From the IMG/VR virus record IMGVR_UViG_3300005294_000064, positions 1 to 29,849 of that record: a stretch of DNA of 29,849 nucleotides; one strand, 5' to 3'. Source of the DNA: a virus. Below are positions 1-20,009 of this stretch, piece by piece (position 1 is the stretch's first letter; each line of letters begins with the position of its first letter). The notes beneath the pieces were generated by a model. That model worked only from the letters and a program-made list of their open reading frames with translations. It was not told the DNA's origin and ran no database searches. Made by a program: the position numbers and the translations under genes.

Positions 1-883
1 GGTTAGCCTCCCACATAGGGAAGGCCGTACCTGTGAAGAATGTGTTATGATAACGGAGTAGTTCGTTCTTCTGGTTGTCGGGCGACGCGCTGGTTGGGCT
101 GCTGCAATACTGGATGAGTTCCGTATCGAAGTGCTCTGGATCATTGATCATATCTATTGTTTTTGCAGGATTAAATTTTGATATGTATTCATACGCCGAT
201 TCCGAATGTGCCAGATGTGACGCAGAAATATACATGTGCCAGTTCCATGAGAACTGGGTTAATCGGCCCATAGGTATATCCAGCATCGTCGCCAGATACT
301 CCTGGAGGATACTGAAGTGGACAGCGTTCGCGCCATAGCAGCCCCACACAATATCATTGGAGCGGCAGGTCACAGCCATGTCAAGGTATCCCCGGTCCAT
401 CCGAAGATAGATCTGGGTATTGCATGGTCGGTCCTTCAGCCCTACGATACCCAGATCCTCGTCGGCATCCCACATCTGAATGACAGCCTGACGACTGTTC
501 GGGTCGTCCTTCAATATCTCTATGACCTTCTTCAGCTGGTCGTAGTAGAAGTGTCGGCGCCAGCGGTAGCCATAGGCCCCGTGCATATGCCCGTCCTTCT
601 CCGCGTAGCGTTCCGAGAAATCGTGTACAAACTGATCGAGCCAGCGGGCATCGTCCCGCCCCGCCAGCATCCACAGAGCCTCGTGGAGATGGAAGATAGG
701 GTTGGCGTCCCGCAGGGGATCGAAAAGTACTCGCTCATTCGGGTGGGTATAGGTTGTGATGACTGGGCATGGTGCGACGAGGACGCGGCCATTTCTGGAC
801 CCGCACTCCTCGCCGATTTTTCTAATCAGCACAACGGCCTGATACCATGCGTCGTTTACGCCACGCGCTTTGATATGTTCCAT
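1..883 (-). CDS. thymidylate synthase-family protein, candidate dUMP hydroxymethylase (partial, 3' end off the window)
   Basis: Reading the minus strand from the ATG at 883 gives about 294 codons with no stop before the left edge, so the C-terminus is missing. Thymidylate synthase (TS) fold motifs appear in order: GAYGYRWR near residues 102-109, NSRQAVIQMWD near 129-139 (phosphate-binding Arg), RPCNTQIYLRM with the nucleophile Cys154, RSNDIVWGCYGANAVHF at 174-190, and NWHMY near 214-218 matching the nucleotide-sugar His-x-Tyr pair. The residue after the catalytic Cys is Asn, not the His of classical TS. Asn186 corresponds to the Asn that selects uracil in TS; T4 dCMP hydroxymethylase has Asp there. 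Family knowledge: TS homologues make dTMP or, in phages with modified thymine, 5-hydroxymethyl-dUMP. The hydroxymethylase reading is inferred from the neighbouring modification genes. The start sits 5 bases after the stop of the upstream endonuclease gene. Confidence 0.9.
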   Translation of the reverse strand, partial: MEHIKARGVNDAWYQAVVLIRKIGEECGSRNGRVLVAPCPVITTYTHPNERVLFDPLRDANPIFHLHEALWMLAGRDDARWLDQFVHDFSERYAEKDGHMHGAYGYRWRRHFYYDQLKKVIEILKDDPNSRQAVIQMWDADEDLGIVGLKDRPCNTQIYLRMDRGYLDMAVTCRSNDIVWGCYGANAVHFSILQEYLATMLDIPMGRLTQFSWNWHMYISASHLAHSESAYEYISKFNPAKTIDMINDPEHFDTELIQYCSSPTSASPDNQKNELLRYHNTFFTGTAFPMWEAN

Positions 884-888
884 ACACT

Positions 889-1638
889 TTACCTTATGAC
901 ACATGTGTTGTGGAAGAGACCGCCTTTGTATATCCTGGAATAACGAAGACGTATAAATGCTCTCACTATTTCCAGTGCATTGCCTTGGTTAACCTTGAAT
1001 TGACCCTTGCCTCTATCGCGCATAGCTGTGCCGACTTCGCGTAAATATTTATGAATCTCTCTTTCAAACCACTCAGCTGTGCCGTAGTCTGCTGTCGCTA
1101 ACATATCCCATGTATATTGGGGAAGCTCAGTGTGACGGCTTCTATCGATAGGTGTTTTAGAGGAACCCACATAAATATATTGTGGCATCTCCAAGTTCCA
1201 CTTAAGATATACACCCGGCCCATGACCCTCATCTTTGTAAGCCAGCAGTATCTCAGTTTCTTGTAGTTCTTGCAACCGGTTATATGTTAATCTATCGTTG
1301 GTTTTAGTAAGTGCATTGTGTGTCGATGAGAACGAAGGCAATAGAAATCGTCTCAATTCATCCTTTCCCTCAGAATATAGGATTGGAGATACACAAAATG
1401 CGCCTCTGCGTACAAGTTGATATCCGATGCCACCTTTATTCGTCGACTCCTTACGAAGATCGATCAAGGTATCAGGCAATCTCTCACCCATTAACTCAAC
1501 CATTCTTCTCTCATTCGATTTTGTATACCAGCCACTTATTCCATATTTGGCAATATGTTCTGCAGCTTTGTGCCCCATCAAAGATTTACCCGGCCCAAAT
1601 CGTGGGTCTTGCCACCAATTAATTCCTGATGTTGGCAT
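889..1638 (-). CDS. GIY-YIG-like endonuclease (probable free-standing homing endonuclease)
   Basis: 249 residues from the ATG at 1638, one base beyond the preceding gene's stop, with GGGGAG upstream; a longer reading to 1713 would overlap the glycosyltransferase and is not chosen. A degenerate GIY-YIG core lies in the C-terminal half: GVY at 142-144, YVGSS at 156-160, IDRSRH at 164-169 (candidate catalytic Arg) and AEWFEREIHKYLRE near 188-201 (candidate metal-binding Glu). The N-terminal 130 residues show no recognised domain and may bind DNA. The gene is visibly more AT-rich than the glycosyltransferase and TS genes on either side, a sign of separate origin. GIY-YIG enzymes are classic thymidylate-synthase-associated mobile elements (I-TevI in T4 td). 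Here it sits directly before the TS homologue. The family call is moderately sure; homing activity is inference. Confidence 0.6.
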   Translation of the reverse strand: MPTSGINWWQDPRFGPGKSLMGHKAAEHIAKYGISGWYTKSNERRMVELMGERLPDTLIDLRKESTNKGGIGYQLVRRGAFCVSPILYSEGKDELRRFLLPSFSSTHNALTKTNDRLTYNRLQELQETEILLAYKDEGHGPGVYLKWNLEMPQYIYVGSSKTPIDRSRHTELPQYTWDMLATADYGTAEWFEREIHKYLREVGTAMRDRGKGQFKVNQGNALEIVRAFIRLRYSRIYKGGLFHNTCVIR

Positions 1639-1639
1639 G

Positions 1640-2440
1640 TTATATCTTCGCTCCCCGTTGATATGCCTTCTTCCATTGTATAGTAACTTCAGTTCGATGG
1701 CCAAACTCGCCACCGCTCTTATTCTTTTTCTGACGTAAGCTTACTACGCCAGGATGTAACTCCGCTAGTCTTTTCGCAGCCTCCTCCTGTACCGCGTGGG
1801 AGCGGTAGGTGGAGCAGCCGCCCGGTGCATTTGTCTGGCGCTGACCCTGTGCCCAATAGATCAGGTTACAGTTGGGAAGCCCCCGCTCCAGCAGCTGGAG
1901 GTTGACATCGAAGTCTTCCATCACGGGCACCCGGCCATGCTCGACCGAGAGGAAGTCCTCCGTCCGGTAGGCCAAGGCCCGTAGCGTCCGGGTGTTCTCT
2001 GCGATCAGGTACTGGTCCCCATTGCCTTGTCTGTTGTTGCCCTCGCGAGCAGAGATACCGACGTGGGCATAATCATTCAATTGTGTCTCCACCATAGCCA
2101 ACATGTTGTTGACCTCGTCAGGCTTGGAGTAGTCGAGATGGAAGGAGGTCGTGCCCTTACGGGTATAGAACCAACAGTCATCATCGACCATCAAGAACTT
2201 ATCGACGCCTTTCTCAGCCGCCCGCTGCCCTATCCAGTGTCGTGTCTTAGAGATACCCTTTTCGGGACACCCAATGACACCGGACTGAATGGTCTGCTTG
2301 CTCATGCTCTTAGTGTACTTATCGACTTGATCTTCAGGTACCACATAGAGCATACGGTGCTGCATAGCCGGGGAAGCAAACCGGGCGACGCCCCAGCTGA
2401 GTGTGTCCGCGCGATCGCAGGACGGTATATAGATTTCCAT
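1640..2440 (-). CDS. TET-associated-type DNA-base glycosyltransferase (TAGT-like, GT-A fold)
   Basis: 266 residues from the ATG at 2440, preceded by AAGGAGAG. The N-terminus MEIYIPSCDRADT and YVVPEDQVDKY, then KGISKTRHWIG around residues 61-71 and FLMVDDDCWFYTRK near 83-96, resemble the TAGT family (TET/JBP-associated glycosyltransferase) described by Iyer and colleagues in phages with modified DNA. The DDD triad is the expected metal/nucleotide-sugar site. MEDFDVNLQLLERG near 173-186 looks like the ED-containing second half of a GT-A fold. Family proteins are predicted or known to add sugars to hydroxymethylated pyrimidines in DNA. The gene lies between the small secreted protein gene and the GIY-YIG/TS pair, in the same direction and with tight junctions, so co-expression is likely. 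The exact acceptor (5-hmU or 5-hmC) and sugar cannot be read from sequence. A different glycosyltransferase role remains possible. Confidence 0.7.
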   Translation of the reverse strand: MEIYIPSCDRADTLSWGVARFASPAMQHRMLYVVPEDQVDKYTKSMSKQTIQSGVIGCPEKGISKTRHWIGQRAAEKGVDKFLMVDDDCWFYTRKGTTSFHLDYSKPDEVNNMLAMVETQLNDYAHVGISAREGNNRQGNGDQYLIAENTRTLRALAYRTEDFLSVEHGRVPVMEDFDVNLQLLERGLPNCNLIYWAQGQRQTNAPGGCSTYRSHAVQEEAAKRLAELHPGVVSLRQKKNKSGGEFGHRTEVTIQWKKAYQRGAKI

Positions 2441-2452
2441 GTCGAACTCTCC

Positions 2453-2770
2453 TTACTCAGCCGACCCTAGATAGTCCCAGCGATTCTGCCAGACATGACC
2501 GGCATCCTCGCATAGCTTTCGGGAAGGATTGTAGTTACGAGACCGGGCGTTGCGCTCGATGCGCTCCCAATCATAGCCCATGATATCAGCTACCGTGTGG
2601 GCTTGGTCCCAAGCCTCAGCCAATGCGCTGTTGCTCATGCCCTTACAGCTACGATGAGCACTGTTGAGCACAGACAGACTCTTGCTCATTCTCTGTGCCT
2701 CTTCCGGGTAGTCCCCCCCGGCCATAGCCGGGGAGGCCGTAAGCATGAATATGATCAGGAGCTTTTTCAT
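2453..2770 (-). CDS. small secreted/periplasmic protein of unknown function
   Basis: 105 residues from the ATG at 2770, which overlaps the SSB stop in a TGATG arrangement. An upstream in-frame TTG is less likely as the start. The N-terminus MKKLLIIFMLTASPAMAGG is a textbook Sec signal peptide with an AMA-type cleavage site and no lipobox Cys. The mature part of about 88 residues is helical and charged, with two Cys (in HRSCKGMS and RKLCEDAG) that could form a disulfide in the periplasm. No family is recognised. Its place between SSB and a glycosyltransferase suggests an early-expressed accessory protein acting in the envelope, for example superinfection exclusion, but nothing in the sequence proves this. 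Confidence 0.75.
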   Translation of the reverse strand: MKKLLIIFMLTASPAMAGGDYPEEAQRMSKSLSVLNSAHRSCKGMSNSALAEAWDQAHTVADIMGYDWERIERNARSRNYNPSRKLCEDAGHVWQNRWDYLGSAE

Positions 2771-3225
2771 CAACGATACTCCGGCGCGAATGGGATCTCA
2801 TCATCATCCAGAGTAGATACACGACGCCCGGCAAACTGCTCAAGCGCTGTCTCCTCCTGTGATGACTGTGAAGGCTGTGTGTCGCGCTTCTGGGAGGGAA
2901 TGGACTGAACATTACCGGAGTATGGGCGGACAATAATCTCGGTAAAATACTTGTCCTCCTGACCCTCGCGCTCCCACTTCCGCGTCTCGATCTGGCCCTC
3001 GACCATGACGAGGTCGCCCTTCTTCACATACTGAGCGACGTACTTGGCGCTCTGTTTATTGAAGATGACAACCTTGTGCCACTGGGTCCGTTCCTGCTTC
3101 TCCCCCCGGTCATCGCGCCAGGTCTCGGATGTTGCCATAGAGAACGTTACAACATCGTTGCTCTTGACTTCAGGATCCTGCCCGACACGACCGACAAGGA
3201 TAGCCTTGTTAACGTTGATTGACAT
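2770..3225 (-). CDS. ssb: single-stranded DNA-binding protein
   Basis: 151 residues starting MSINVNKAILVGRVGQDPEV, the usual SSB opening, with ATG at 3225 behind AGAGGAAG. A longer reading to 3285 is rejected because it adds unrelated sequence. The OB-fold spans about residues 1-105: VVTFSMATSETWRD, TQWHKVVIFNK, KKGDLVMVEGQIETRKWE and YFTEIIV are typical strands. A Gln/Ser/Glu-rich linker leads to DDDEIPF, the acidic tip that docks SSB partner proteins, here followed by four extra residues (APEYR ends the protein), so the tip is not strictly terminal. It coats ssDNA at the replication fork. The start overlaps the end of the 65-residue gene upstream. Confidence 0.95.
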   Translation of the reverse strand: MSINVNKAILVGRVGQDPEVKSNDVVTFSMATSETWRDDRGEKQERTQWHKVVIFNKQSAKYVAQYVKKGDLVMVEGQIETRKWEREGQEDKYFTEIIVRPYSGNVQSIPSQKRDTQPSQSSQEETALEQFAGRRVSTLDDDEIPFAPEYR

Positions 3226-3406
3226 ACGGTATCTTCCTCTCTTCCGCATCAAACTTGTGGATCGCATCGAGTGCGTTCGCCACAATGACTTGAACCTTGG
3301 AGGTACGCTGGATCACCGTGTCGTGCCCCTGCGCGAAGACGTCGTTGATCTTCTTAGCAGCGATCATTGCGACTTCGTCCCGCCGCTCGTCATAACGCAG
3401 TGCCAT
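3209..3406 (-). CDS. small conserved-looking phage protein, unknown function
   Basis: 65 residues from the ATG at 3406, preceded by a strong GGAGG five bases upstream. The product MALRYDERRDEVAM... is charged and predicted all-helical, with no membrane segment or Cys. Its last 17 bases overlap the SSB start, giving translational coupling, so it probably belongs to the replication operon. Function is not recognised. Confidence 0.7.
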   Translation of the reverse strand: MALRYDERRDEVAMIAAKKINDVFAQGHDTVIQRTSKVQVIVANALDAIHKFDAEERKIPYVNQR

Positions 3407-3536
3407 CGTACCTCCAAGGGCCGATCCGGATGCAAAACCGTTCGGACCAACAAATTGAATCTAACTTGTTTTGGCGCGAGTCGATACCATTTTCTTTCCG
3501 GAACTCGGACCGAAGACCCCCGTCAGCGATGCCCAC
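3390..3536 (-). CDS. possible 48-residue ORF, doubtful
   Basis: A GTG at 3536 directly follows the stop of the 80-residue gene and opens a 48-codon frame that ends inside the next small gene. It contains LRSEFRKENGID and two Cys. There is no good ribosome-binding site and the segment is otherwise a 130-bp intergenic gap. It may be a real small gene, a decayed remnant or chance. Confidence 0.2.
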   Translation of the reverse strand: MGIADGGLRSEFRKENGIDSRQNKLDSICWSERFCIRIGPWRYDGTAL

Positions 3537-3779
3537 CTACTTCTTGCCTCCACCCCACGCATACATATAGATCGGTTGTCCGGCGTGATGATTAACTTCG
3601 GCCTTTAGTCTCTCGACCTCATGCTCCAAATACTTGATGTGTGTTTCAGCTGCTGTTAGACTATTCAGCAGTCCAGCAGCATCATCTGCACCACTCTTAC
3701 CTGGTCCAGTGCGAAACTGGTACGCCGGATTGGGCGGATTGTCCATGCCGGCGTCGGCAGGGTCCCTAGCGTCACTCAC
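3537..3779 (-). CDS. small coiled-coil protein, unknown function
   Basis: 80 residues. The start is a GTG at 3779 that overlaps the upstream stop as GTGA, a common coupled arrangement in phages. The first 25 residues are Pro/Asn-rich and probably disordered. AAETHIKYLEHEVERLKAEV at about residues 43-62 forms two to three heptads of a coiled coil, suggesting oligomerisation. The tail WGGGKK is short and basic. No family is recognised. Confidence 0.6.
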   Translation of the reverse strand: MSDARDPADAGMDNPPNPAYQFRTGPGKSGADDAAGLLNSLTAAETHIKYLEHEVERLKAEVNHHAGQPIYMYAWGGGKK

Positions 3780-3898
3780 TTCTTCCTCCGCTTCTTCGTC
3801 CAGCCCTTGGACGCGTGATAAGCGATAACCTGCTTCTTCGTGTAGGTACGTCCGCTAGGCGACTTGTACTTTCCGCCCTTCATTCTCTTGAATGGCAT
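3776..3898 (-). CDS. small basic phage protein (40 residues)
   Basis: MPFKRMKGGKYKSPSGRTYT... begins at the ATG at 3898 behind GGAGG. The 40-residue product is about one-third Lys/Arg, ends in KKRRKK and is likely nucleic-acid binding. Similar tiny basic proteins are common near phage replication genes. It overlaps the end of the upstream pyrophosphorylase-family gene by 44 bases and the next start by 4, so it is embedded in a coupled operon. A longer reading to 4000 only runs antisense-like sequence inside the neighbour and is rejected. Confidence 0.65.
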   Translation of the reverse strand: MPFKRMKGGKYKSPSGRTYTKKQVIAYHASKGWTKKRRKK

Positions 3899-4733
3899 GG
3901 GCCTGTCCTCCTCGGAACAGTTGCTTGGGTCTTCCTTCCCCCAACCTTGCCCTCTCGTATTTATCCCACTCGCAACACATATTCTGCACGTCCTGAGCAT
4001 GTGGCTCTTCCCAGCCTAGCTCCCGAAATCGGGGTAACATCTCATCCCTCAGTCGGGCCAGGGCGAGCCGCCAAGCGTCCTCGTTCCAAGGCTGACGCAG
4101 GGGCCGACCCATTACCCGGTTGAGCCCACGGCGACTCCCAGGCCCGCTGGCAGCGAAGGTGTGCCAGTCCCGCGCCCCGCGTAGTACGCCCGCATACTTG
4201 GCGTCAGCTACGACCTGTGCTGAGATAAAGCCCGCCAGCCCATAGAAGAGACACAGAGACAGATGGAAGCTAGTCAGTGTATCACTGGGAATTGGTGTGA
4301 GATTACCGCGCGCGTTCCACAGTGGCGTAAATACCATGTCAGCCAGATAGACAGCCTTGGACCCGTTGTGACGGGTGCCGATCATGTAAGCCCCGCTGAA
4401 TACCTTCTCGCGCTTGAGGCGGCGGTCCTCAGCGATTTCTACAAATTTATTCCTGTTCCACGGTAGTAGCGCCCCACCCAATGCATCAAGCATCGGGATA
4501 TTATTCATGTGTCGAGCAACAACGAAGGCGTGCCAGAGGTCAGGGTTATCCGCGTTGGGTTCCCGCCAGTGCTTCGCGAGCCACGCGGTAACCGTATCCA
4601 GTTCGCGGTAGATGTTACAGAATCTATACTTGCTGAGGATAGGATCCTTCGTAAGCAGAGAATCTCCGGCATTTCGACGTAGATAGATACGGTGCCGTTC
4701 TTCAACGAAAGTGAGTAGCTCTGTGACACGCAT
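3855..4733 (-). CDS. alpha-glutamyl/putrescinyl-thymine pyrophosphorylase family protein (5-hmdU DNA kinase helical-domain family)
   Basis: 292 residues from the ATG at 4733 behind GAAGAGAGAG. Hallmarks of this all-helical, glycosylase-like family are present: RHRIYLRRNAG near 14-24, DPILSKYRFCNIYRELD near 31-47, LWHAFVVARHMNN, EKVFSGAYMI, GSKAVYLAD, FYGLAGFISAQVVADAKY, DWHTFAASGPGSRRGLNR, HAQDVQNMCCEWDKYERARL and GEGRP. Family knowledge: these proteins act in phages with hypermodified thymine (ViI, M6, SP10 and W-14 types), replacing the diphosphate on 5-hydroxymethyl-dU in DNA with an amino acid or amine; some members are fused to the 5-hmdU kinase. No P-loop kinase domain is present in this copy. 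Together with the glycosyltransferase and TS homologue it points to modified thymine in phage DNA. A terminator-like hairpin sits only 17-55 bases upstream of the start. Confidence 0.85.
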   Translation of the reverse strand: MRVTELLTFVEERHRIYLRRNAGDSLLTKDPILSKYRFCNIYRELDTVTAWLAKHWREPNADNPDLWHAFVVARHMNNIPMLDALGGALLPWNRNKFVEIAEDRRLKREKVFSGAYMIGTRHNGSKAVYLADMVFTPLWNARGNLTPIPSDTLTSFHLSLCLFYGLAGFISAQVVADAKYAGVLRGARDWHTFAASGPGSRRGLNRVMGRPLRQPWNEDAWRLALARLRDEMLPRFRELGWEEPHAQDVQNMCCEWDKYERARLGEGRPKQLFRGGQAHAIQENEGRKVQVA

Positions 4734-4826: not shown

Positions 4827-5078
4827 TCAGGCAGCTTCAGCCTCAGCTTCGCCGGGCGTCAAGGTAATATAGCCTCGGTCCGGGTGTGCATCGTAGGAAA
4901 TGTCGGCGGCCTTGACGCCAGCTTCCTTGGCTTCTTTGACGGTCATGCCGTCCTTGTACATAGCGAACCGGTCGAAGGAGGCGGTGCCTTCCCTCTTAGG
5001 ATTCTTCCCGCCCTCAGTCGCGATCGAGATGACGTGAGTGTCGGGAATCTTAGGTGCACGTGCGGCTTTATCGGACAT
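4827..5078 (-). CDS. candidate internal-start product (C-terminal 83 residues of the 235-residue gene)
   Basis: The in-frame ATG at 5078 is preceded by AAGGAGGACAGT, a near-perfect Shine-Dalgarno at normal spacing, stronger than that of the longer ORF. The product starts MSDKAARAPKIPDTHVISIA and has the length and composition of a stand-alone small phage protein. There is no stop between it and the upstream part, so both the long and short forms could be made. Confidence 0.45.
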   Translation of the reverse strand: MSDKAARAPKIPDTHVISIATEGGKNPKREGTASFDRFAMYKDGMTVKEAKEAGVKAADISYDAHPDRGYITLTPGEAEAEAA

Positions 5079-5534
5079 ACTGTCCTCCTTACTGTGTTGC
5101 GGTACTACATGGAAGGACCGTGCATCATCTCTAGGCAAAGACCTCAGAGTTTTGCCTTCGAGTGACACACGGTCCTCTACGATGATACGAACGATCTCCG
5201 CAGGATCTTTCGGTGGGGGATTACCCAACGAGAGAACCTTAGACCATATAAGGTCTCGTGCCTCATTCGACAAGTTAGTGTCGGCCTTTTTACTGGCCTT
5301 CCAAGTCTCCATCGCGTCGACGAGTCGTGCCCTGTCTCGACCCTCCGTGTGCTTCAAGAGCACTTCGATGTGACCCTTGCCGTATTGAGATACAAGCTGG
5401 TCTGCAGTCTCTGCATAGATGTCATCCGACTGTGGGATCGGGTGGATCCGGGCCTCTGCCTTAGTGGCAAAGATCCAGATTGCTCCATTCCCGTTTCTCG
5501 TGACAACTACACAGGTCAACTGCCGTCCTTCCAT
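4827..5534 (-). CDS. phage protein of unknown function with a possible separately translated C-terminal module
   Basis: 235 residues from the ATG at 5534, preceded by AAGGTGAACG and a candidate promoter. The first ~150 residues are mixed alpha/beta with an AETADQLVSQYGKGHIEVLL segment and an AEIVRIIVEDRVSLEGK segment; no family is recognised. The last ~83 residues, from MSDKAARAPKIPDTHV, read like an independent small phage protein (SFDRFAMYKDGMTVKEAKEAG, then DISYDAHPDRGYITL) and carry their own strong ribosome-binding site. Either this is a fusion of two small proteins or an in-frame pair of products. The unit ends at the terminator at 4750-4788. Confidence 0.65.
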   Translation of the reverse strand: MEGRQLTCVVVTRNGNGAIWIFATKAEARIHPIPQSDDIYAETADQLVSQYGKGHIEVLLKHTEGRDRARLVDAMETWKASKKADTNLSNEARDLIWSKVLSLGNPPPKDPAEIVRIIVEDRVSLEGKTLRSLPRDDARSFHVVPQHSKEDSMSDKAARAPKIPDTHVISIATEGGKNPKREGTASFDRFAMYKDGMTVKEAKEAGVKAADISYDAHPDRGYITLTPGEAEAEAA

Positions 5535-5711: not shown

Positions 5712-7235
5712 TTATATTTCGTACTGACGTCGCTGGTCATGGGGCATCACGATGGATAGTTGCCGCTTCGCTCGTGTTGCTGCAACGTACCAGCATCGTG
5801 CTTCCTCCGGGGAAGTACGGGGATCTCCGGACGGCCCACACTCGCGGACCGTTCGCGCAGCCATATCCGTCAGGAGGATGACATGCTCAGCCTGACCGCC
5901 CTTGGCCCCATGGATAGTAGAAAGCCTCACAGTCGGACGCCGGGTTAGCCTCTCGCCCCGCCGCAGCGCCTTAGTCATATAGGCTCTATCTGACGGAGGG
6001 ATACGATCGAACGCGTCGTGCCAGATCACGTCGGTCAGCAAGCCACCCGCTATCTTCAGGTCGGGCATATTCACCATCTGCTCCCGGTCCTTGTAGTTGG
6101 GCAGCTTCTTGTGGCCGCGAGCATAACCCTCGCCCGCCCGCATGTTGGAGTAGACACGCTCGGCCTCAGCTACTGTGATCTCCTCGCCCTTCCGCAGTTT
6201 CTCCCAGTCTATGATAGCTTCGACAAGTGACTGACGTACTGAGGTCGCGCCCCGAAACTCGTAGAGAATGCCGTCAGACTTCAGCAGAGGCATGACATCA
6301 TCGCGTAGGAAACAGGCATTACGTGAGAGGATTAGGAGATCCTCTCCTGTATTGAAGTCCAGATAATCCAGCCTCCCGACACGCTTGACAACGCCCGCAT
6401 CTCCGGCCCGCGCCTCCCATTTCTTCTCACGCCTATGCCTGACCCTGGATATGATCTCTAGGGCCAGCGGCTGTATCGCTGAAGGTACACGCCAGGAGTG
6501 GCCGAGAACCCGCACCTGACCGGGGAGATCGACGAAGTGTTCCACCGCCGCCCCAGCCCACTGATAGATAGCTTGGTCGTCGTCCCCCGCGATCACTACC
6601 CGGCTCGTCCCCTTGGCCAGTCTCTGCACCACACGCCACTGGAGCATGGAGAGGTCTTGGGCCTCGTCCACAAATAGCTTATCCAGTCGCGCCGACCACT
6701 CAGAGTCGGCGAACTGTTGTAGCATATCCGTAAAGTCCAGTAGCCCCTTGACTTTCTTATACTCGGCAAGGTTGAGGCTGACCTGCTCCACGATATTCCA
6801 CGGGATATCATCCGTGTTCTGGTTGTACTGTTCACGCAGCGATATACCCTTGACCCGTGCAAGATTGTCCATGAAGAGACAGCGGTCGCCCTGAGTGAAA
6901 CCAAAGGACATGCCATCGTCCATGGATATGAAGGACGAGATATTCATTCCAACCGCGTCCCCGAACTCAGCCAGCTTCTTCCCCTCCAATACTTCGGAGG
7001 AAGAGAGACCAAGGGCAGCGAAGCATAACGAGTGGATAGTACGGAACCAAGGTAGTTCAGTGGCCCCCAACCTAAACTTGCTCTGGGCGCGGTGTCGCGC
7101 TTCCTCCGCCGCCCGCCGCGTAAATGAAATAAATCCAATTCTATCCGGAGGTATACCTTTATCTAGTTCTTGTTCTACCAACTCCAATAACGCTGTAGTT
7201 TTCCCTGTTCCGGGTGGCCCGAGTATAATTTCCAT
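5712..7235 (-). CDS. UvrD/PcrA-like superfamily 1 DNA helicase
   Basis: 507 residues from the ATG at 7235 behind GGAGAGCG. All SF1A motifs are visible: Walker A GPPGTGKTT at 6-14, motif Ia FISFTRRAAEEA near 36-47, Walker B LFVDEAQDLS near 189-198, motif III VVIAGDDDQAIYQWAGA, motif IV around LGHSWRVPSAIQPLA, motif V STIHGAKGGQAEHVIL near 449-464 and motif VI WYVAATRAKRQLSIV near the end. It is an ATP-driven 3'-5' type translocase, shorter than UvrD (~720 residues) and so with reduced accessory domains, as in many phage helicases. It follows the primase and the inserted HNH gene and is probably part of the replication operon. Its first 77 bases overlap the HNH gene. The AT-rich composition of the HNH gene extends into the helicase 5' end. 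Confidence 0.92.
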   Translation of the reverse strand: MEIILGPPGTGKTTALLELVEQELDKGIPPDRIGFISFTRRAAEEARHRAQSKFRLGATELPWFRTIHSLCFAALGLSSSEVLEGKKLAEFGDAVGMNISSFISMDDGMSFGFTQGDRCLFMDNLARVKGISLREQYNQNTDDIPWNIVEQVSLNLAEYKKVKGLLDFTDMLQQFADSEWSARLDKLFVDEAQDLSMLQWRVVQRLAKGTSRVVIAGDDDQAIYQWAGAAVEHFVDLPGQVRVLGHSWRVPSAIQPLALEIISRVRHRREKKWEARAGDAGVVKRVGRLDYLDFNTGEDLLILSRNACFLRDDVMPLLKSDGILYEFRGATSVRQSLVEAIIDWEKLRKGEEITVAEAERVYSNMRAGEGYARGHKKLPNYKDREQMVNMPDLKIAGGLLTDVIWHDAFDRIPPSDRAYMTKALRRGERLTRRPTVRLSTIHGAKGGQAEHVILLTDMAARTVRECGPSGDPRTSPEEARCWYVAATRAKRQLSIVMPHDQRRQYEI

Positions 7236-7698
7236 CTTTAAACGCTCTCCACGCAGCATGAGCAAGTTCAGGTGTAGTATATAGCCCAAGATAGCAGGTC
7301 TTATCGTTTAGTTTACCCTGTGCTCTATATTTATTCCTAAAGAAATCTACTCCAGCTGGTAACCCATAACATTCAGGTCTTGAATTAATTTGGTTACGAT
7401 GATTACCATGTGCTGTAGTATCTCTGATATTAAAAAGTGAATTATCGTGTCGTATATGGTTATTGTGGTCTATTTCATCTGGATCATAACCATACACCAT
7501 CTTCCAAATGATACGATGTACTTTATATATTCGACCATCTATTTTAACTATGCAGTAACCGCCCCTAGTTATATTGGATATTCTATGGCCCTGTAAAAAT
7601 GGCTTGTTCCAAGGTGGATTTTTCCAATATAGATATTGTCCATCATATTCAAATAAACGTAACAAATACTCTTGAGGCGGTAGAGGAATTGGTTTCAT
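7159..7698 (-). CDS. HNH homing endonuclease with AP2-like DNA-binding domain
   Basis: 179 residues from the ATG at 7698, joined to the primase stop as TAATG. The HNH core spans residues 60-101: VHRIIWKM, DEIDHNNHIRHDNSLFNIRD, then HGNHRNQ, with candidate catalytic His78, Asn89 and His97. An AP2-like module follows: GLPAGVDFFRNKYRAQGK, then CYLGLYTTPELAHAAWRAF, the usual architecture of phage HNH-AP2 mobile endonucleases. The gene is strikingly AT-rich against the GC-richer primase and helicase. Its last 25 codons run into the helicase reading frame and encode a tail (RATRNRENYSVIGVGRTRTR) that does not look like a conserved domain end, suggesting the ORF was extended by insertion. It is a selfish element that cuts DNA lacking it. 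Confidence 0.92.
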   Translation of the reverse strand: MKPIPLPPQEYLLRLFEYDGQYLYWKNPPWNKPFLQGHRISNITRGGYCIVKIDGRIYKVHRIIWKMVYGYDPDEIDHNNHIRHDNSLFNIRDTTAHGNHRNQINSRPECYGLPAGVDFFRNKYRAQGKLNDKTCYLGLYTTPELAHAAWRAFKDGNYTRATRNRENYSVIGVGRTRTR

Positions 7699-9284
7699 TA
7701 TATCGGATCCCCATCAAACTTCTTCGGGCGGGACGGCGGCATCGGGTCGAAGTTAGCGGGCACCCACCACACATTCGTGCCCTTCTTCTTGATCTTGAAG
7801 AAGTCAGCGTCACCGCCGAGCGCCCTAAGCCGGGATGCTATGCGGGCACGGTTGTACACCTTGAAGCCCGACCCCTCTAGGAATTTCTGCAAATCCTTAA
7901 GCCGGAAGTAATGACGCTCCAAGTCTGTATCCTCCCAGGGACGCCCCTGAAGGAGATCGTCTTTAGATTCGCCCCGGTTACGGTGCGTGAGAAACTCTTC
8001 CAGTATCTCCTCGAACTGACCAGAGAGACCCACCTCCTTCGATACGATTATCTCGGTGGAGTTGCGCATAGCCACCCCCACCATAGTGATCCAGTCAGTC
8101 TGCTTGATCATACGGTAGCAGACGCGGAGCTGTTCCATGCAAATCTTATGGAAGGACTTGTAGTTCTGAAGATCCTCGGTCGATAACTCTATGCGCTCGT
8201 CACCTACGTCCAGGAACCAGAGCGGCGGGTCCGTCTTCAGGCAAGACATACCCGATATCACTGGGTACTCATCGTCGCCACCGACACCATACTTACGGCC
8301 CCGGCATACGGAGGAGTTGCAGTGAGCGAGCAGCGGGTGCTCCTTGCAAGTGTAGTTGTAGTCCTTCTTCTCGTGGTTTTGGACAATAGCTACAACTTCC
8401 TTTGAATCAAGTGGAGGATCGAATAGGTCGCGGTTCCACTTCTCGATCATCTCGACCCAGCGCAACCCGTATTTCTTCTTGGCGAATACGGCTAGGGCGA
8501 AGAGGCCCTTATTCCGCATGCCGTCCGGGTAGCCAACGGAGGCGAGGTGTTGCATGCAGGGTGGGCCATCCCCAAACTCGGAGTCGCCCTTCCTATTGTC
8601 GCCGCCACCCCGCTTACGGATCTGTTCGAAGTTGATAATCTCCGAGGGACTCTTTATCCTGAGCATCGCTACGGCTAGAAACTCATCCAGCAATAGCTTC
8701 TCACCCTCTGCATTGATAGCATAGCGGTCGGTGTTATCCCCAGCGAAGTACGGCATATTGAGCCAGGAGCCTAGATCGCTACGCTCCCAGTTCACGGCCC
8801 GCTGCTTCGGGAAGATTTCCGCCGAGCCGTGGCCTATCAGCGCGGCCATCACCTTCAGCGTATCCTGCATGGCCCGAGCCTCTATGGGCTCAGTGCAGAA
8901 TAGGAACAGATGTGCCCCGCCTGACTTGGAGCGACAGATAGTGAGGGGTAACCCAAGCTTTTCCACCTGTTTGTATATCTCAGTGAGCGAGATATCATAG
9001 GCGTCTATATCTATACAGCCCCACGTACAGGTATTGTTCAGACGTATGGGGATAATGCCCAGCGGGAAGGAACCAGCAACGTGGTCGGTCCACAGCTTGA
9101 GCGTGACTGGTTGTCGGAGCGTCGTCGCGGAGGACTTGATCTCCTGCTTCCCGCCCTTCATGTCATTGTAAATCATGCCCGTAGCATCGTATGTGCCATA
9201 GGCTTTATCGTACCCAGCGAATAGCTCCATGAGCTTCTTGATGCTGAGCGCAAGACTATTCGTGGTGTTGTGTACCGTTACCAT
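7698..9284 (-). CDS. archaeo-eukaryotic-type primase (AEP, TOTE/phage primase-polymerase-like)
   Basis: 528 residues from the ATG at 9284 behind CAGGAG. The AEP catalytic signature is visible: the metal-binding pair in WGCIDIDAYD (Asp92 and Asp94) and the nucleotide-binding SGGAHLFLF (121-129, His125). A zinc-finger-like CKEH...HCNSSVCRGRKYG cluster lies near 315-335, common in phage primases. The C-terminal 170 residues are a helical/winged domain with no clear name. It would make primers for lagging-strand synthesis, and AEPs can also polymerise DNA. It heads the block primase-HNH-UvrD helicase and follows the two acidic phage proteins at 9352-10872. No DnaG-type or hexameric helicase motif is seen in it. 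Confidence 0.8.
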   Translation of the reverse strand: MVTVHNTTNSLALSIKKLMELFAGYDKAYGTYDATGMIYNDMKGGKQEIKSSATTLRQPVTLKLWTDHVAGSFPLGIIPIRLNNTCTWGCIDIDAYDISLTEIYKQVEKLGLPLTICRSKSGGAHLFLFCTEPIEARAMQDTLKVMAALIGHGSAEIFPKQRAVNWERSDLGSWLNMPYFAGDNTDRYAINAEGEKLLLDEFLAVAMLRIKSPSEIINFEQIRKRGGGDNRKGDSEFGDGPPCMQHLASVGYPDGMRNKGLFALAVFAKKKYGLRWVEMIEKWNRDLFDPPLDSKEVVAIVQNHEKKDYNYTCKEHPLLAHCNSSVCRGRKYGVGGDDEYPVISGMSCLKTDPPLWFLDVGDERIELSTEDLQNYKSFHKICMEQLRVCYRMIKQTDWITMVGVAMRNSTEIIVSKEVGLSGQFEEILEEFLTHRNRGESKDDLLQGRPWEDTDLERHYFRLKDLQKFLEGSGFKVYNRARIASRLRALGGDADFFKIKKKGTNVWWVPANFDPMPPSRPKKFDGDPI

Positions 9285-14590: not shown

Positions 14591-17500
14591 TCAGGTTGTC
14601 ACAGTCACGGTTCCAACACCCGCCGTCATTATCAAGCCGGCACTTGCTGGAACGGATACGCTAATGGGCGTGCCGAAGCGCGCGAAGGGCGTGATAGGTA
14701 CAGTATAGCCAGCGTCCGACGCATAGCGAGCGACGCCCTTGGTGATACGAACCTCGTCGATCCAGCCCTGCCAGTAGCGACCACCAGTGGAATCAGAGCC
14801 AACCGCAAATGGCGTCGTGGCATTGAACATTGCAGAGTTTGCCGGCGTAGAGCTACCGCACATGACGCCGTTTGCATAGACACGGATCTTTCCCGTAGCG
14901 TCCTTGTCGACAGCCACATGGTGCCATGCGTTAGTTACTATTCCCGCACCACTGGTCGTGATGCTGACGTTAAAGCTTGAGCCACTATTGGACAGACCGA
15001 AGTTCAGCTCAGTCGAGTTGGCGACGTTGGGTATCTTAAGAGTGAACGCAGCCTGTGACCCTGATCCATTTTGCGATACAATGGTGCGATCTACACTGCC
15101 AACAACAGTGCGTCGAACCCATGCCTCGATAGTGAATTGATCACTATTAGCATTGGATAGATCCCAGTCAGTACTATCTGGTACGGTGACGTAGTCTCCT
15201 GTGCCATCGAGCTTCAGGGAAGAAACCCCGAATTTGAACTCAGCTGTATCAATCTGGGCATCGCCGACGAATGTAAGTGGAGAGTGGGGAGGAATAGACT
15301 CATCAACAGATGATGTCGCGCCATCGACACCATTAAAGCCAGCAAGGAATTTGACATTGAGCCAGTAGAGATCGCCTATGCCCTCGATAACTGTCACTGA
15401 ACCAACAGACATCGTTAACTGCTCGCCCACCGCGTACCCAGCATCAGTGGGTAGATTAACCCCATTGACACGAGCATACATCGACGGACTCGTTACGTAC
15501 ACTAGAACATCACCACCTATTCTACACTCGATTTGATATGCCTGCCATTCACGATAGCCATCCCGCTCGGACCCAACACGAATATATCCGTTGGAGTACG
15601 CTCCAAACGAGGTTGCAGGTACACTATACGATGTTCCTGTCAACCCAGCATGTGTTGTAAGGATAAGCCCATCCGCCCGTGTAACTTCAATAATAGTCGT
15701 CTGCCCCGCCTCTGGTGTCGTCGTAGCGTCCGTCCATGTCAGCGGCGTACTGATCTCCGTGAGCCTATTCCGCTCGACCCACGTCACGCTCAATGTCGGC
15801 GCCAGAAGAGCATCCACCGGACCAATGCTCTGTCCATTCACTCGCACATTAGCAGGGCGGAGAGGACGTATGGCCCGCGAGTCCATCGTGATTTCCTCAA
15901 CCGGAGCCACGCCGATATCGAGCACGCCCTGCGTGGATCGTGTCAATAGCTGCACGTCCGGGGTGGTCGCATCGGCGCGCTGCACACCATCGGGCATGCC
16001 CTCAGTGTCGTACACCACCAGGGTCTCCCCGGCCACGTGAGCGCGGGGGACAGTATCCAGCATGCCCCGGCTTATCGTCAGGGTTGTGCCGACTACCGCA
16101 GTGACCCACACGATTTCCGTGGTCAGTGGGTCCAGATCATCATGAATAGCGGCGAGTATCGGTACCACAATCAGGTCTAGATCATCGTCACTGGTCAGTA
16201 CGACCTCAGTGTCGAACTCGTCAATGCTGACATCGAGCAGGCCCGAGGGAGCAAAGCTCATTGTCTCATACTTTATGCCGTCCACATAGATATATGCCTC
16301 TGTAGAGTCCGGCGTTGGCTGTTGGCCAGATGCCTGTATCATCCCACTGGTTGGATTGCTACTCAGCATTGTATCTATTTGCGCTGACCCAATCATCTCG
16401 CGCAGTTCACGGTACGGCATCTCCCACACGAGGCGAATATCGACAGCTGCTGGCGGATTAGAAGGACTCTCCCAGTCAGTATCCTCCACATCGACCAGCT
16501 CGTTCGGGCTAAGGTTGAAGACGTCTTGCCCAAACTTGACACTGATCCGGTTTTCGCGTCCATCACCAAACCGCATGGACGCAACGCGCATCACCTCGCC
16601 GTCGAGATTGTGGCGTGCGGTCACCAGCCGGAAAGGGTCTCCTGGATACAGGATATCCCACTTGCGAGTGCCGGTAACACGGCCCGAAATCAGCCCTATC
16701 CCGAGAGACTTCTGATCTCTACTAGCAAGGCGCGAGGCTAGGCCGCTGGTGCTGACGCCGGGGTAGAAACGTGTCGCGCTGACACGTGTCCCCAGTTGCT
16801 GGATCTGGGCGATATTGTCATACGACAGCGAGGCGTCTTTGCCTCTGTTGGAGCGGTCAGTGTACTTGACGATGACCGAGTTGTTGGACTCTGCTGGCTC
16901 GCGCCGCGTGACCTCGTCCCACTTGACCACATCGTCCTCACCAAAGATGGGTAGCGACCCAAGATCATAGTCGTAACGGATGAGCTTCAGATAGAATTTG
17001 CCCGTCGTGCGCTTCAGATACAGATAAGCGTCGATATGGCTCAGAACAACGGTAATGAACTCTTCGATCCGCTCCTCTCGCGTCCACAGGAGGGACATAC
17101 CAAACCCCTCAGCGAACAATACATCCGCCGCCGCCATGAAACTTGTATCGTCTATATCACCAGCAGGATAGCCCATCCCCCACGTTGTATCTGTGAGACA
17201 TTCACGGATAATGTGGGCGGGATTCATATCGTATCCCTTGGCACTATCACCCATCACATTAATAGCGGCCTTGCCCGAGTACCACTGCTCTATCCCGGCC
17301 GATGTCTTAAGGATGCGCTGTAGCGTGAACTCCCAGGGCTTGATGTAGGCATTTGTCCCTATGTAGATGTGTCTCCATACAACGCTGACAATGCCACGAA
17401 ATGCCGGAGTGGTTGCACCCTCCAGTTTGGATGCGAGATAGTCATTCTGTCCCTGACTGGGGGAGCCACTCATTATGTCGATAGTGCCCTGAATACCACC

Positions 17501-17917
17501 TTCGCCATCCTCTCCACCAAATAGGTCAGGCTTGTTAATGCTGATCGAGCCGGAGCCAGCAATGCTGGCCTGTAGATCCTTGTCTCCGGCCCAGATGCTA
17601 AGTACTGTGTCGTGTACCCCGTGGCACAGGACCATATGCATACCCAGTTTGTACTTGTGGCCGATAACCTGACGGGGACCAAAGAACATATAGCGGCGCG
17701 GTCCCTTGATAGCGTCAGCCGCGAAATCCCCGTACCAGACGCAGTTGGGTGCCTTCTGAGTAGTCGTCCCGAATAGGACAGGTATCTCCAGCCCCTCCTC
17801 AGCAACCGGAAGATCAAAGTCTTCCAGGGATGCCGCCTTGGCATTCTGAGGTTTGGGGGCAAGCACGAGGTTCAAGAAGAACATCGCGATGCCGATGACT
17901 ATGTTCCAGAAGATCAT
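14591..17917 (-). CDS. large tail-tip/hub protein 2 (J-like) with C-terminal LamG-type domain
   Basis: 1108 residues from the ATG at 17917, joined to the upstream stop as TGATG. A hydrophobic N-terminus (MIFWNIVIGIAMFFLNLVLA, then PKPQNAKAASLEDF) precedes a hub region with IPVLFGT, LCHGVHD, PAFRGIVSVV and KPWEFTLQRI. From residue 230 comes the putative phage tail protein core (PF13550-like: DMNPAHIIRECLTD, WTREERIEEFITVVLSHIDAY, GRVTGTRKWDILYPGDPFRLV, MRFGDGRENRISVKF), then fibronectin-like modules to about 850. Residues ~856-1080 are a LamG/concanavalin-like domain (FKFGVSSLKLDGTGDYVTV, WHHVAV, GWIDEVRITKGVARY). It ends with VGTVTVTT. It is a paralogue of 24502-28122. It probably forms the tail tip and contacts the host receptor. 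Confidence 0.88.
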   Translation of the reverse strand: MIFWNIVIGIAMFFLNLVLAPKPQNAKAASLEDFDLPVAEEGLEIPVLFGTTTQKAPNCVWYGDFAADAIKGPRRYMFFGPRQVIGHKYKLGMHMVLCHGVHDTVLSIWAGDKDLQASIAGSGSISINKPDLFGGEDGEGGIQGTIDIMSGSPSQGQNDYLASKLEGATTPAFRGIVSVVWRHIYIGTNAYIKPWEFTLQRILKTSAGIEQWYSGKAAINVMGDSAKGYDMNPAHIIRECLTDTTWGMGYPAGDIDDTSFMAAADVLFAEGFGMSLLWTREERIEEFITVVLSHIDAYLYLKRTTGKFYLKLIRYDYDLGSLPIFGEDDVVKWDEVTRREPAESNNSVIVKYTDRSNRGKDASLSYDNIAQIQQLGTRVSATRFYPGVSTSGLASRLASRDQKSLGIGLISGRVTGTRKWDILYPGDPFRLVTARHNLDGEVMRVASMRFGDGRENRISVKFGQDVFNLSPNELVDVEDTDWESPSNPPAAVDIRLVWEMPYRELREMIGSAQIDTMLSSNPTSGMIQASGQQPTPDSTEAYIYVDGIKYETMSFAPSGLLDVSIDEFDTEVVLTSDDDLDLIVVPILAAIHDDLDPLTTEIVWVTAVVGTTLTISRGMLDTVPRAHVAGETLVVYDTEGMPDGVQRADATTPDVQLLTRSTQGVLDIGVAPVEEITMDSRAIRPLRPANVRVNGQSIGPVDALLAPTLSVTWVERNRLTEISTPLTWTDATTTPEAGQTTIIEVTRADGLILTTHAGLTGTSYSVPATSFGAYSNGYIRVGSERDGYREWQAYQIECRIGGDVLVYVTSPSMYARVNGVNLPTDAGYAVGEQLTMSVGSVTVIEGIGDLYWLNVKFLAGFNGVDGATSSVDESIPPHSPLTFVGDAQIDTAEFKFGVSSLKLDGTGDYVTVPDSTDWDLSNANSDQFTIEAWVRRTVVGSVDRTIVSQNGSGSQAAFTLKIPNVANSTELNFGLSNSGSSFNVSITTSGAGIVTNAWHHVAVDKDATGKIRVYANGVMCGSSTPANSAMFNATTPFAVGSDSTGGRYWQGWIDEVRITKGVARYASDAGYTVPITPFARFGTPISVSVPASAGLIMTAGVGTVTVTT

Positions 17918-18951
17918 CAGACTACCTCGATACCAAACTCCGCCGCATTGACACCGCTCCCCGTCCACGCGACGGAGGTGGCCGGGTCTACGAGAAAAGC
18001 CTCTTGCTGTAGTTTATAGCCAAGTGCCGTGATCGTCTGGCTGGCACCGTTTGCCTCGCTACTACCCGACTTGGATCGTGCACGAATAACGGCTAGGCCG
18101 CCACCTGTGATAATTCGCGAATAAGTATTGACAATGGCGGCCGAAACAACAGTCGGGGTAGTACCAAAATTGCCGTGAGCATAGAGATCCTTGTGTCCGG
18201 ACGTCGAGGATGCAACATAGGTTGTATCATCGTCTCTGTTGACTTCGTCCACACAGTCATAGTTTGATGCCGCACCGGTCGGAGTAAACTGCGCACTAGA
18301 GCCAGCACCGCTCGGCCGCAACGTCTCAATCGCGCGCACTCCCATGGGCGAGGTAGTCAGACCAGTGCCCTCATTGTCCCATACGATTACATCATCGAAA
18401 CTTGTTGCTACACCCACGCAGCGAAAGGCTATGGCGAACAGTCCCGCCGGAGTCGAAGATACTGAAGTAGCTCCGTTGGCTATCACCAACACCCCATCGA
18501 CATAAATATTCAGTGTTGCAGCTGCAGAACTCTGGAGTTTAGTCGTCGTAAATTCTATATGGTGCCAGACATTGTCACAGATATTTGCTGCACTAACGAG
18601 ATTAGGGCCGACCGTAGTACCCGTGTACAGGGTTCCAATAGTTCCAGCGGCATTCACAGATATTCCAGTGTGAACTAAGCCACCTCCTGAATCGTATACA
18701 TACATGATTGCTCCGGCAGTTGGTAAGGATGCTATCTTAATCCAGAAACTACCGTATAGAGTCTGCGCCGCCACGACGGGCACGCGATACATCTTTACTA
18801 TGGCACTGCTGAGTGTGGAGCACGTCACGGCCCCTCCGCCATTTATACCGGCAGTTGAGCTCCACGAATATCCTGTACCAATAGAGTCCCACTTTTTACT
18901 CAAATCAGCAGTAGCCGCGTAGGAGTCAAACCCGTCACAGAATCTAAACAT
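17917..18951 (-). CDS. putative tail-tip adhesion protein, LamG-like fold (paralogue of 18962-19999)
   Basis: 344 residues from the ATG at 18951 behind GTAGGAGATG. It starts MFRFCDGFDSYAAT and is beta-rich, with YGSFWIKI, NVWHHIEF, LNIYVDGVL and FDDVIVWDNEG, a jelly-roll pattern like LamG/concanavalin carbohydrate-binding domains. The second half has ETLRPSGAGSSAQFTPTGAA, NYDCVDEVN and HKDLYAHGN, and it ends EAFLVDPATSVAWTGSGVNA then EFGIEVV. It is clearly homologous along its whole length to the next gene, and its C-terminal motif is shared with the 332-residue protein at 22587-23585. It lies directly before the second tail-tip gene. Role in host recognition is inferred. Confidence 0.78.
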   Translation of the reverse strand: MFRFCDGFDSYAATADLSKKWDSIGTGYSWSSTAGINGGGAVTCSTLSSAIVKMYRVPVVAAQTLYGSFWIKIASLPTAGAIMYVYDSGGGLVHTGISVNAAGTIGTLYTGTTVGPNLVSAANICDNVWHHIEFTTTKLQSSAAATLNIYVDGVLVIANGATSVSSTPAGLFAIAFRCVGVATSFDDVIVWDNEGTGLTTSPMGVRAIETLRPSGAGSSAQFTPTGAASNYDCVDEVNRDDDTTYVASSTSGHKDLYAHGNFGTTPTVVSAAIVNTYSRIITGGGLAVIRARSKSGSSEANGASQTITALGYKLQQEAFLVDPATSVAWTGSGVNAAEFGIEVV

Positions 18952-19999: not shown

Positions 20000-20009
20000 A
20001 CTCTTCTCC

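Follow-up and report, generated by a model that had tools for sequence, protein, structure and literature searches.

A phage appears to make hydroxymethyl thymine bearing a sugar, with a glycosyltransferase where close relatives keep amino-acid-attaching genes

What does a phage do to its DNA when its genes for a thymidylate synthase (TS) homologue, for the glycosyltransferase TAGT and for an aGPT-PPlase-family protein are clustered? The locus lies on a linear IMG/VR fragment that is cut inside TS, with the genes downstream of TS falling outside the record; we call the whole 29.8-kb stretch analysed, off whose left end TS runs, the window. The original prediction described a pyrimidine (thymine-type) DNA-modification cluster on one strand, and this description held: all three genes are on the minus strand, and the expected Pfam families were recovered for TS (E value of 4.1e-23), TAGT (PF20691; 2.8e-22) and the aGPT-PPlase-family protein (PF18723; 1.4e-33), identities that support such a cluster. 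When the initial 12 kb of the window was compared with phage records at the nucleotide level, nothing matched. The source is probably a tailed phage with a thymine-glycosylation cassette in the window.

The gene for the single-strand DNA-binding protein (SSB; 2770..3219, minus strand; PF00436, 2.8e-29), which is syntenic in relatives, sits amid the TS, TAGT and PF18723 genes, next to a small protein with a signal-peptide-like start and no Pfam match (2453..2773, minus strand). Upstream of the PF18723 gene, also on the minus strand, come an unknown protein that is a syntenic neighbour in relatives (4827..5534; 53% identical to its counterparts in loci L002 and L004), a UvrD-like helicase (5712..7241; PF00580, 3.9e-33; 60% in L004 and L005) and an AEP (TOTE-type) primase (7698..9284; PF22548, 4.2e-12; 47–49% in L004 and L005); the helicase, a syntenic replication gene, and the primase anchored our comparisons.

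The TS open reading frame spans 904..2 on the minus strand, but aligned homologues begin at 883, placing the gene at 1..883, truncated on its 3' side where the window stops. Besides PF00303, it matches phrog_5131 (6.6e-87), and it is 41% identical to M6 gp58 and 33% identical over 210 residues to the SPO1 gp29 dUMP hydroxymethylase, sharing with both an ND-x-x-WG-x-x-GAN motif in the alignment. Its base-selecting position is Asn, the dUMP type, not Asp, the dCMP type; Cys161 and Asn193 are conserved with M6, SPO1 and Escherichia coli ThyA. In the TS tree and alignment it clusters with the M6-type (M6/PaMx11) enzymes, and M6 DNA contains bases derived from 5-hydroxymethyl-deoxyuridine (5-hmdU; PMC6449724). 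From its sequence, we predict that the window TS is a dUMP 5-hydroxymethylase.

The TAGT (1640..2440, minus strand) matches PF20691 across the profile, with residues 1–208 on positions 1–205 of 205 and a score of 80.1 bits against a gathering cut-off of 27.5; it also matches phrog_842 (1.1e-40). Its active-site residues are intact, comprising an invariant DDD at 86–88 and ED at 175–176. It had no convincing sequence match to any solved structure, and a scan with another TAGT, that of L008, as query returned only itself; an AlphaFold2 model (pLDDT 91), however, matches GT-A folds with Z scores of up to 14.6. We predict that the window TAGT glycosylates 5-hydroxymethyl-dU in DNA. The TAGTs whose activity is established have (glucosyl-)hydroxymethylcytosine as their substrate (PMC13216743, PMC13390438), and we know of none here active on 5-hmdU.

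The PF18723 protein (HMUDK_hel, aGPT-PPlase clade 1; 3855..4733, minus strand) matches its family over residues 5–265 at 116.9 bits against a cut-off of 25. It has no P-loop match in Pfam, no PF18724 match at an E value of 1 and no convincing sequence match to any solved structure. Its AlphaFold2 model (pLDDT 91) is all-helical, and the best solved match is 8z2n, PaMx11 gp46 (PUGT), a 5-PmdU glycinyltransferase (Z score of 10.7 over 226 residues, 4.3 Å); gp46 is itself a PF18724 protein, unlike that of the window, and the sequence likeness is at profile level only (PF18723 versus ADDT by hhalign, E value of 1.4e-4). The PF18723 profile aligned with the single sequence of E. coli endonuclease III along the HhH motif, at a non-significant E value of 0.24. 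The protein thus plausibly has an ADDT/DNA-glycosylase-like (HhH) fold, an AlphaFold match that cannot prove catalysis. Its core residues are invariant alike in sugar-type and amino-type phages of all classes.

The original prediction had this protein acting on activated 5-hmdU. In M6, however, that step belongs to the amino-acid transferase ADDT, which is PF18724 (gp51); the kinase is PF18748 (gp54), and the window's family corresponds to a third protein, gp55. Because the PF18723 protein is not supported as the performer of the activated-5-hmdU step, the further claim that both amino-acid and sugar chemistries meet in one phage loses its support. We rejected two other roles for PF18723: that of amino-acid transferase, which PF18724 fills in M6 and PaMx11, and that of restoring thymine from phosphorylated 5-hmdU, akin to an unexplained step in phiW-14 (PMC5977210), because there are TAGT phages without a kinase and, as far as we can infer, the protein has no apparent site for a hydride cofactor.

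As predicted, no 5-hmdU kinase was found: neither PF18748 nor PF18747 matched anywhere in the 29.8-kb window, nor did PF18724 at an E value of 0.1, and of the M6-type set of hydroxymethylase, kinase and ADDT, the fragment holds the hydroxymethylase-type TS alone. Syntenic relatives, whose PF18723 and TS proteins are 60–65% and 53–65% identical to those of the window, have UvrD2-INO1-(rSAM)-ADDT-phosphatase-kinase in the interval from SSB to TS, which in the window contains TAGT and two other open reading frames only. The kinase lies upstream of TS in 67/69 loci and ADDT in 44/44, and in the window's own clade these figures are 14/14 and 12/12, some of the relatives' calls being below Pfam cut-offs and based on tblastn and position. 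Where visible, both genes in this clade are 0.7–3.7 kb upstream of TS, a stretch that is complete in the window and contains neither. In another clade, an unrelated GT-B glycosyltransferase occupies the same slot. The results as a whole suggest that cassettes for disguising thymine are exchanged on a shared core.

A census covered 50 phage records retrieved by TS of the window type alone. PF18723 was present in 49/50, a clustering with TS far beyond chance; TAGT was present in 20 and ADDT or kinase in 16, with no record holding both (Fisher p 3e-5). Across 90 loci, 40 had any glycosyltransferase, 41 had kinase or ADDT, and none had both. PF18723 accompanies TAGT or a GT-B glycosyltransferase in about 40 phages without ADDT, and TAGT and ADDT never occur together in the records examined; TAGT with PF18723 is therefore a recurrent gene set, rather than the unusual mix of chemistries first proposed. 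One record, L179, pairs a probable kinase and a radical SAM protein with TAGT, without ADDT, meaning that exclusion of kinase by TAGT is not absolute; mutual exclusion of sugar and kinase/ADDT cassettes is near-complete. In the TS tree, the window is the lone TAGT row in a 15-row clade with 100% support whose other 14 members are kinase-type, and the tree requires repeated switches between types; in a second TS tree, support was weak (54 and 84) for the innermost groupings that include the window. Tests on independent pairs gave a median p of about 0.008–0.016, with the direction always opposite where the traits differ. PF18723 seems, from these gene contexts, to be a conserved partner of the TS-type hydroxymethylase.

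We consider it likely that TS-type hydroxymethylase and PF18723 form a modular 5-hydroxymethyl-deoxyuridine platform, which here is decorated with sugar and not with both chemistries. What each enzyme acts on and yields, the sequence in which they work and the protection that glycosylation would give are inferred as follows. The TS-type enzyme would convert dUMP to 5-hydroxymethyl-dUMP, which would be polymerised into phage DNA as 5-hmdU; PF18723, a putative base-flipping DNA enzyme, would carry out, at sites of 5-hmdU, a step that all such phages share; and TAGT would transfer sugar from a nucleotide-sugar onto the 5-CH2OH group, giving a glycosyl-O-methyl-uracil base, of an architecture like that of base J, that may guard the DNA from host nucleases. 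Relatives would have the hydroxymethylation and PF18723 steps in common, with kinase and amino-acid:DNA transferase replacing TAGT. More tentatively, and at slightly less than an even call, PF18723 may be an enzyme of this platform with an ADDT/HhH-glycosylase-like fold, not a kinase accessory, and its step would be required with any kind of decoration, with sugar (GT-A/GT-B) and amino-acid (kinase-ADDT) cassettes interchangeable and the phage DNA containing glycosylated hydroxymethyluracil.

Since the record is a fragment, a kinase and ADDT might lie beyond the left end of the window, giving DNA that has bases of both the amino and the sugar type, or a single base with both modifications; L179 combines kinase, radical SAM and TAGT, and SP-15 DNA has sugars on hypermodified uracil (PMC5977210). 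The upstream position of both genes throughout the window's clade, on the side that is complete here, and the failure of TAGT and ADDT to co-occur in any record examined make this unlikely. A cytosine route is about as improbable, if not slightly more so; here 5-hydroxymethyl-dCMP would be the product of the TS-like enzyme, and TAGT would add sugar to cytosine in the manner of T-even phages. The biochemically known TAGTs do belong to the hydroxymethylcytosine pathway (PMC13216743, PMC13390438), for which phrog_842 is named, but the window TS groups with M6/PaMx11 and has the Asn and WGxxGAN of the SPO1 enzyme, where T4 gp42 has FRND, and its constant partner PF18723 belongs to thymidine-modifying phages.

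Most improbable of all would be an ordinary thymidylate synthase beside a TAGT that glycosylates the host surface or a protein, with PF18723 in some other role. The Pfam label of the TS would fit, and GT-A folds are widespread; against this stand the constant linkage of TS with PF18723, the swapping of TAGT by position with DNA-modifying enzymes, and a TS motif closer to dUMP hydroxymethylases than to ThyA.

Among known systems, the kinase-ADDT branch of 5-hmdU pathways in M6 and PaMx11 resembles the platform proposed here in its TS-type dUMP hydroxymethylase, its PF18723 protein (35% identity) and its clustering beside replication genes. It differs by a kinase, ADDT and a set of sculpting enzymes (in M6, PLP and radical SAM enzymes; in PaMx11, an FAD enzyme and an acetyltransferase), in place of which the window has TAGT. 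The three-gene combination is already in print for HTVC023P-type Pelagiphages, described as having TS, aGPT-PPlase1 and a beta-glucosyl-HMC-alpha-glucosyltransferase near DNA polymerase; that account deals with marine podoviruses only and contains, in the part available to us, no analysis of exclusion or swapping (PMC9599517). Brevibacterium phage LuckyBarnes (NC_047851) has TS, PF18723 and two copies of TAGT in one four-gene run, with no PF18748, PF18747 or PF18724, but its TS is very divergent, on a long branch, and its genes are ordered differently from those of the window, with TS first. The T6-type TAGT, a beta-glucosyl-HMC-alpha-glucosyltransferase, shares PF20691 and the GT-A fold (PMC13216743) but adds a second glucose onto glucosyl-hmC; the window has a dUMP-type enzyme only, with no dCMP-type hydroxymethylase.

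A conserved gene core thus seems to serve interchangeable DNA disguises, the swapping of which is plausibly driven by host nucleases specific to one modification. A recent survey found TAGT without alpha- or beta-GT in 288/753 phage genomes and termed these potentially novel transferases (PMC13216743); 5-hmdU is a candidate substrate for such stand-alone enzymes. If the proposal is correct, glycosylated hydroxymethyluracil would be a base type without report, in the literature searched, for phages with such a gene set. The Pfam name 'HMUDK helical domain' is at odds with gene contexts in which PF18723 is kept, its core unchanged, where no 5-hmdU kinase is found. Finally, the open reading frame between TAGT and TS (889..1641, minus strand) encodes a GIY-YIG/T5orf172-like protein, probably a mobile nuclease: it matches PF10544 weakly (0.13), its homologue at L004:6945-7631 scores 0.0011 against the same family, and homologues occur at different sites in L004 and L024.

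At the left end of the window, a linear 29.8-kb IMG/VR virus record, a cluster of minus-strand genes comprises a thymidylate synthase (TS) homologue running from 883 and truncated at base 1, an ORF of GIY-YIG-like type (1641-889), a TAGT glycosyltransferase (2440-1640), a small ORF, SSB (3219-2770), further small ORFs and the gene of a PF18723 protein (4733-3855). Strong Pfam and PHROGs scores confirmed the TS, TAGT and PF18723 families named in the original prediction, whose coordinates were also correct. The TS homologue shares 41% identity with gp58 of Pseudomonas phage M6 and, over 210 residues, 33% with the SPO1 dUMP hydroxymethylase, and keeps the Asn193 and NDxxWGxxGAN motif common to both; the TAGT has every invariant residue of its family, and its GT-A model agrees with the published T6 TAGT model (PMC13216743).

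Gene order is kept in relatives whose PF18723 proteins are 60-65% and whose TS proteins 53-65% identical to those of the window: SNF2, w10279, w9352 (both window ORFs), AEP primase, UvrD, the ORF w4827, PF18723 and SSB. In these relatives an HD nucleotidase and then DNA polymerase come after TS. Their SSB-TS interval holds a second UvrD, usually a myo-inositol-1-phosphate synthase, sometimes a radical SAM protein, a divergent amino acid:DNA transferase (ADDT), usually a dual-specificity phosphatase, and a predicted 5-hydroxymethyl-deoxyuridine (5-hmdU) DNA kinase; in the window the interval is ~1.9 kb and holds only the small ORF, the TAGT and the GIY-like ORF. Of 69 loci with the kinase, 67 carry it upstream of TS, and all 44 with an ADDT place that gene there too; in the window's own clade the distance is always 0.7-3.7 kb. 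Neither gene is present on the TS-upstream side of the window, an absence that is informative despite the fragmentary record because that side is fully covered. An HNH endonuclease ORF (PF13392; 7159-7698), likely mobile, overlaps the UvrD gene start and adjoins the AEP primase. The gene for the myo-inositol-1-phosphate synthase (PF01658, E 2e-36, at L022:5622-6725 on the plus strand; also in L002, L003, L018, L024, L026 and L027) immediately precedes those for radical SAM/ADDT, phosphatase and kinase; these close relatives perhaps make an inositol-derived thymidine hypermodification, and the literature searched yielded no paper linking inositol with such a modification.

A TS alignment, blind to modification genes, retrieved 80 viral loci, of which the 50 longest records contained PF18723 in 49, TAGT in 20, ADDT in 15 and kinase in 14, the kinase counts including sub-threshold matches. 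TAGT never co-occurred with ADDT or kinase (0/50, Fisher p 3e-5), nor did it in the 31 records of at least 45 kb (TAGT 13, ADDT/kinase 10, both 0, p 1e-3). Both were likewise absent from the TAGT- and PF18723-bearing phages of our first record set (the window, G007, G028, G039 and Brevibacterium phage LuckyBarnes), and a search from a related TAGT gave 15 loci, 12 with PF18723 and TS, with no ADDT by profile among those checked. In a clade with neither TAGT nor kinase/ADDT, an unrelated GT-B type glycosyltransferase (PF00534) sits exactly between PF18723 and TS (for example L083:8667-10001 and L099:8720-9997). Across 90 loci of at least 12 kb, 40 had a glycosyltransferase, 41 kinase/ADDT, none both and nine neither, a raw p of 3e-17 that ignores the relatedness of the loci.

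When TAGT and kinase/ADDT states are mapped on a TS tree of 119 rows, they require 15 changes, and well-supported branches force at least nine changes in TAGT. Among pairs joined by supported paths that do not overlap, those that differed always did so in opposite directions (median p 0.016; 0.008 including GT-B, and the same when the tree was enlarged to 131 rows by adding TAGT phages). Within a 15-row clade of 100% support, TAGT occurs in the window alone, and the nearest relative of its TAGT (48%) comes from phages in another TS clade, which fits horizontal exchange. The exclusion of kinase and TAGT is strong, though not absolute, because locus L179 carries both: a P-loop kinase like that of phage PaMx11 (32%, E 1.5e-17), an uncharacterized 308-aa protein, TAGT and radical SAM-SPASM lie in a row (L179:8542-11875) adjoining PF18723, making this locus our only candidate for a combination of kinase with sugar chemistry. 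Elsewhere, radical SAM-SPASM lies beside a protein of 333-346 aa without a family assignment, next to PF18723/TS, in two loci lacking kinase and ADDT (L040:7209-9154 and L128:7952-9987); the unassigned protein also occurs in TAGT-bearing L036 (8991-9986).

Pfam separates gp51 (PF18724, ADDT), gp54 (PF18748, kinase) and gp55 (PF18723) in M6; PaMx11 has the same layout, its gp46 being PF18724, and the annotation of the M6-like phage SN1 also keeps aGPT-Pplase1, nucleotide kinase and aGPT-Pplase2 apart (PMC9476957). The window protein is of the gp55 type, so the activity originally predicted for it, on activated 5-hmdU in DNA, belongs instead to the gp51 type. A confident AlphaFold2 model (29-sequence alignment, pLDDT 91) had as its best match among solved structures PaMx11 gp46, a 5-PmdU glycinyltransferase (Z 10.7, 226 residues, 4.3 Å, 10% identity); next came queuosine-salvage DUF2419 enzymes and 8-oxoguanine DNA glycosylases (Z 9-10), values that are on their own middling for a helical protein. 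Profile comparison of PF18723 with PF18724 agreed (E 1.4e-4 over residues 151-258, spanning the G-x-G-x-F motif and LC[EK]); from these matches, PF18723 is most likely a remote relative of ADDT, the two having a DNA-glycosylase-like fold in common. Following the G-x-G-x-F helix-hairpin-helix-like stretch, D189 may correspond to the catalytic Asp of DNA glycosylases, judging from motif position. Among 103 PF18723 proteins, R43, D46, F169, D177, G197, G199, G203, C254, E255 and K258 are identical whether the phage is of the TAGT, GT-B or kinase type, and R13, N40, R74, K126, D189 and P198 nearly so, which argues for a single unchanged predicted activity, upstream of or parallel to decoration. 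Divergent relatives in bacterial contigs (L142-L164; Alphaproteobacteria and candidate phyla radiation) have no TS, TAGT or kinase nearby and possibly serve non-phage roles, and L142-L144 resemble phage sequence inside MAGs.

The two chemistries, sugar and amino, originally proposed to coexist in this phage are probably not both present: kinase and ADDT are missing from their usual side of TS, and TAGT and ADDT never occur together in the records examined. Our reading, based on sequence and models, is that the window encodes a predicted thymine-glycosylation variant of 5-hmdU hypermodification systems. The gene set itself is known: TS, aGPT-PPlase1 and a transferase of the TAGT type have been described together in pelagiphages, with the suggestion that these phages extend the range of the system (PMC9599517). 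In the literature searched there seems to be no earlier account of the cassette swap, of the exclusion pattern or of a PF18723 protein that is independent of the branch. Sugars occur on the hypermodified uracil of SP-15 (PMC5977210), and the same search found no test of a TAGT on 5-hmdU.

The tail region of the window contains two paralogous tail proteins (14591-17968 and 24502-28122), 59-67% identical over about 790 residues, the latter with an additional region of roughly 390 residues. Tandem paralogues at 17917-18951 and 18962-20035, 53% identical, are probably tail-associated, and a 69-bp in-frame repeat (22344-22496; 2.2 copies, 88% matches) lies near the start of an 857-aa tail-region ORF.
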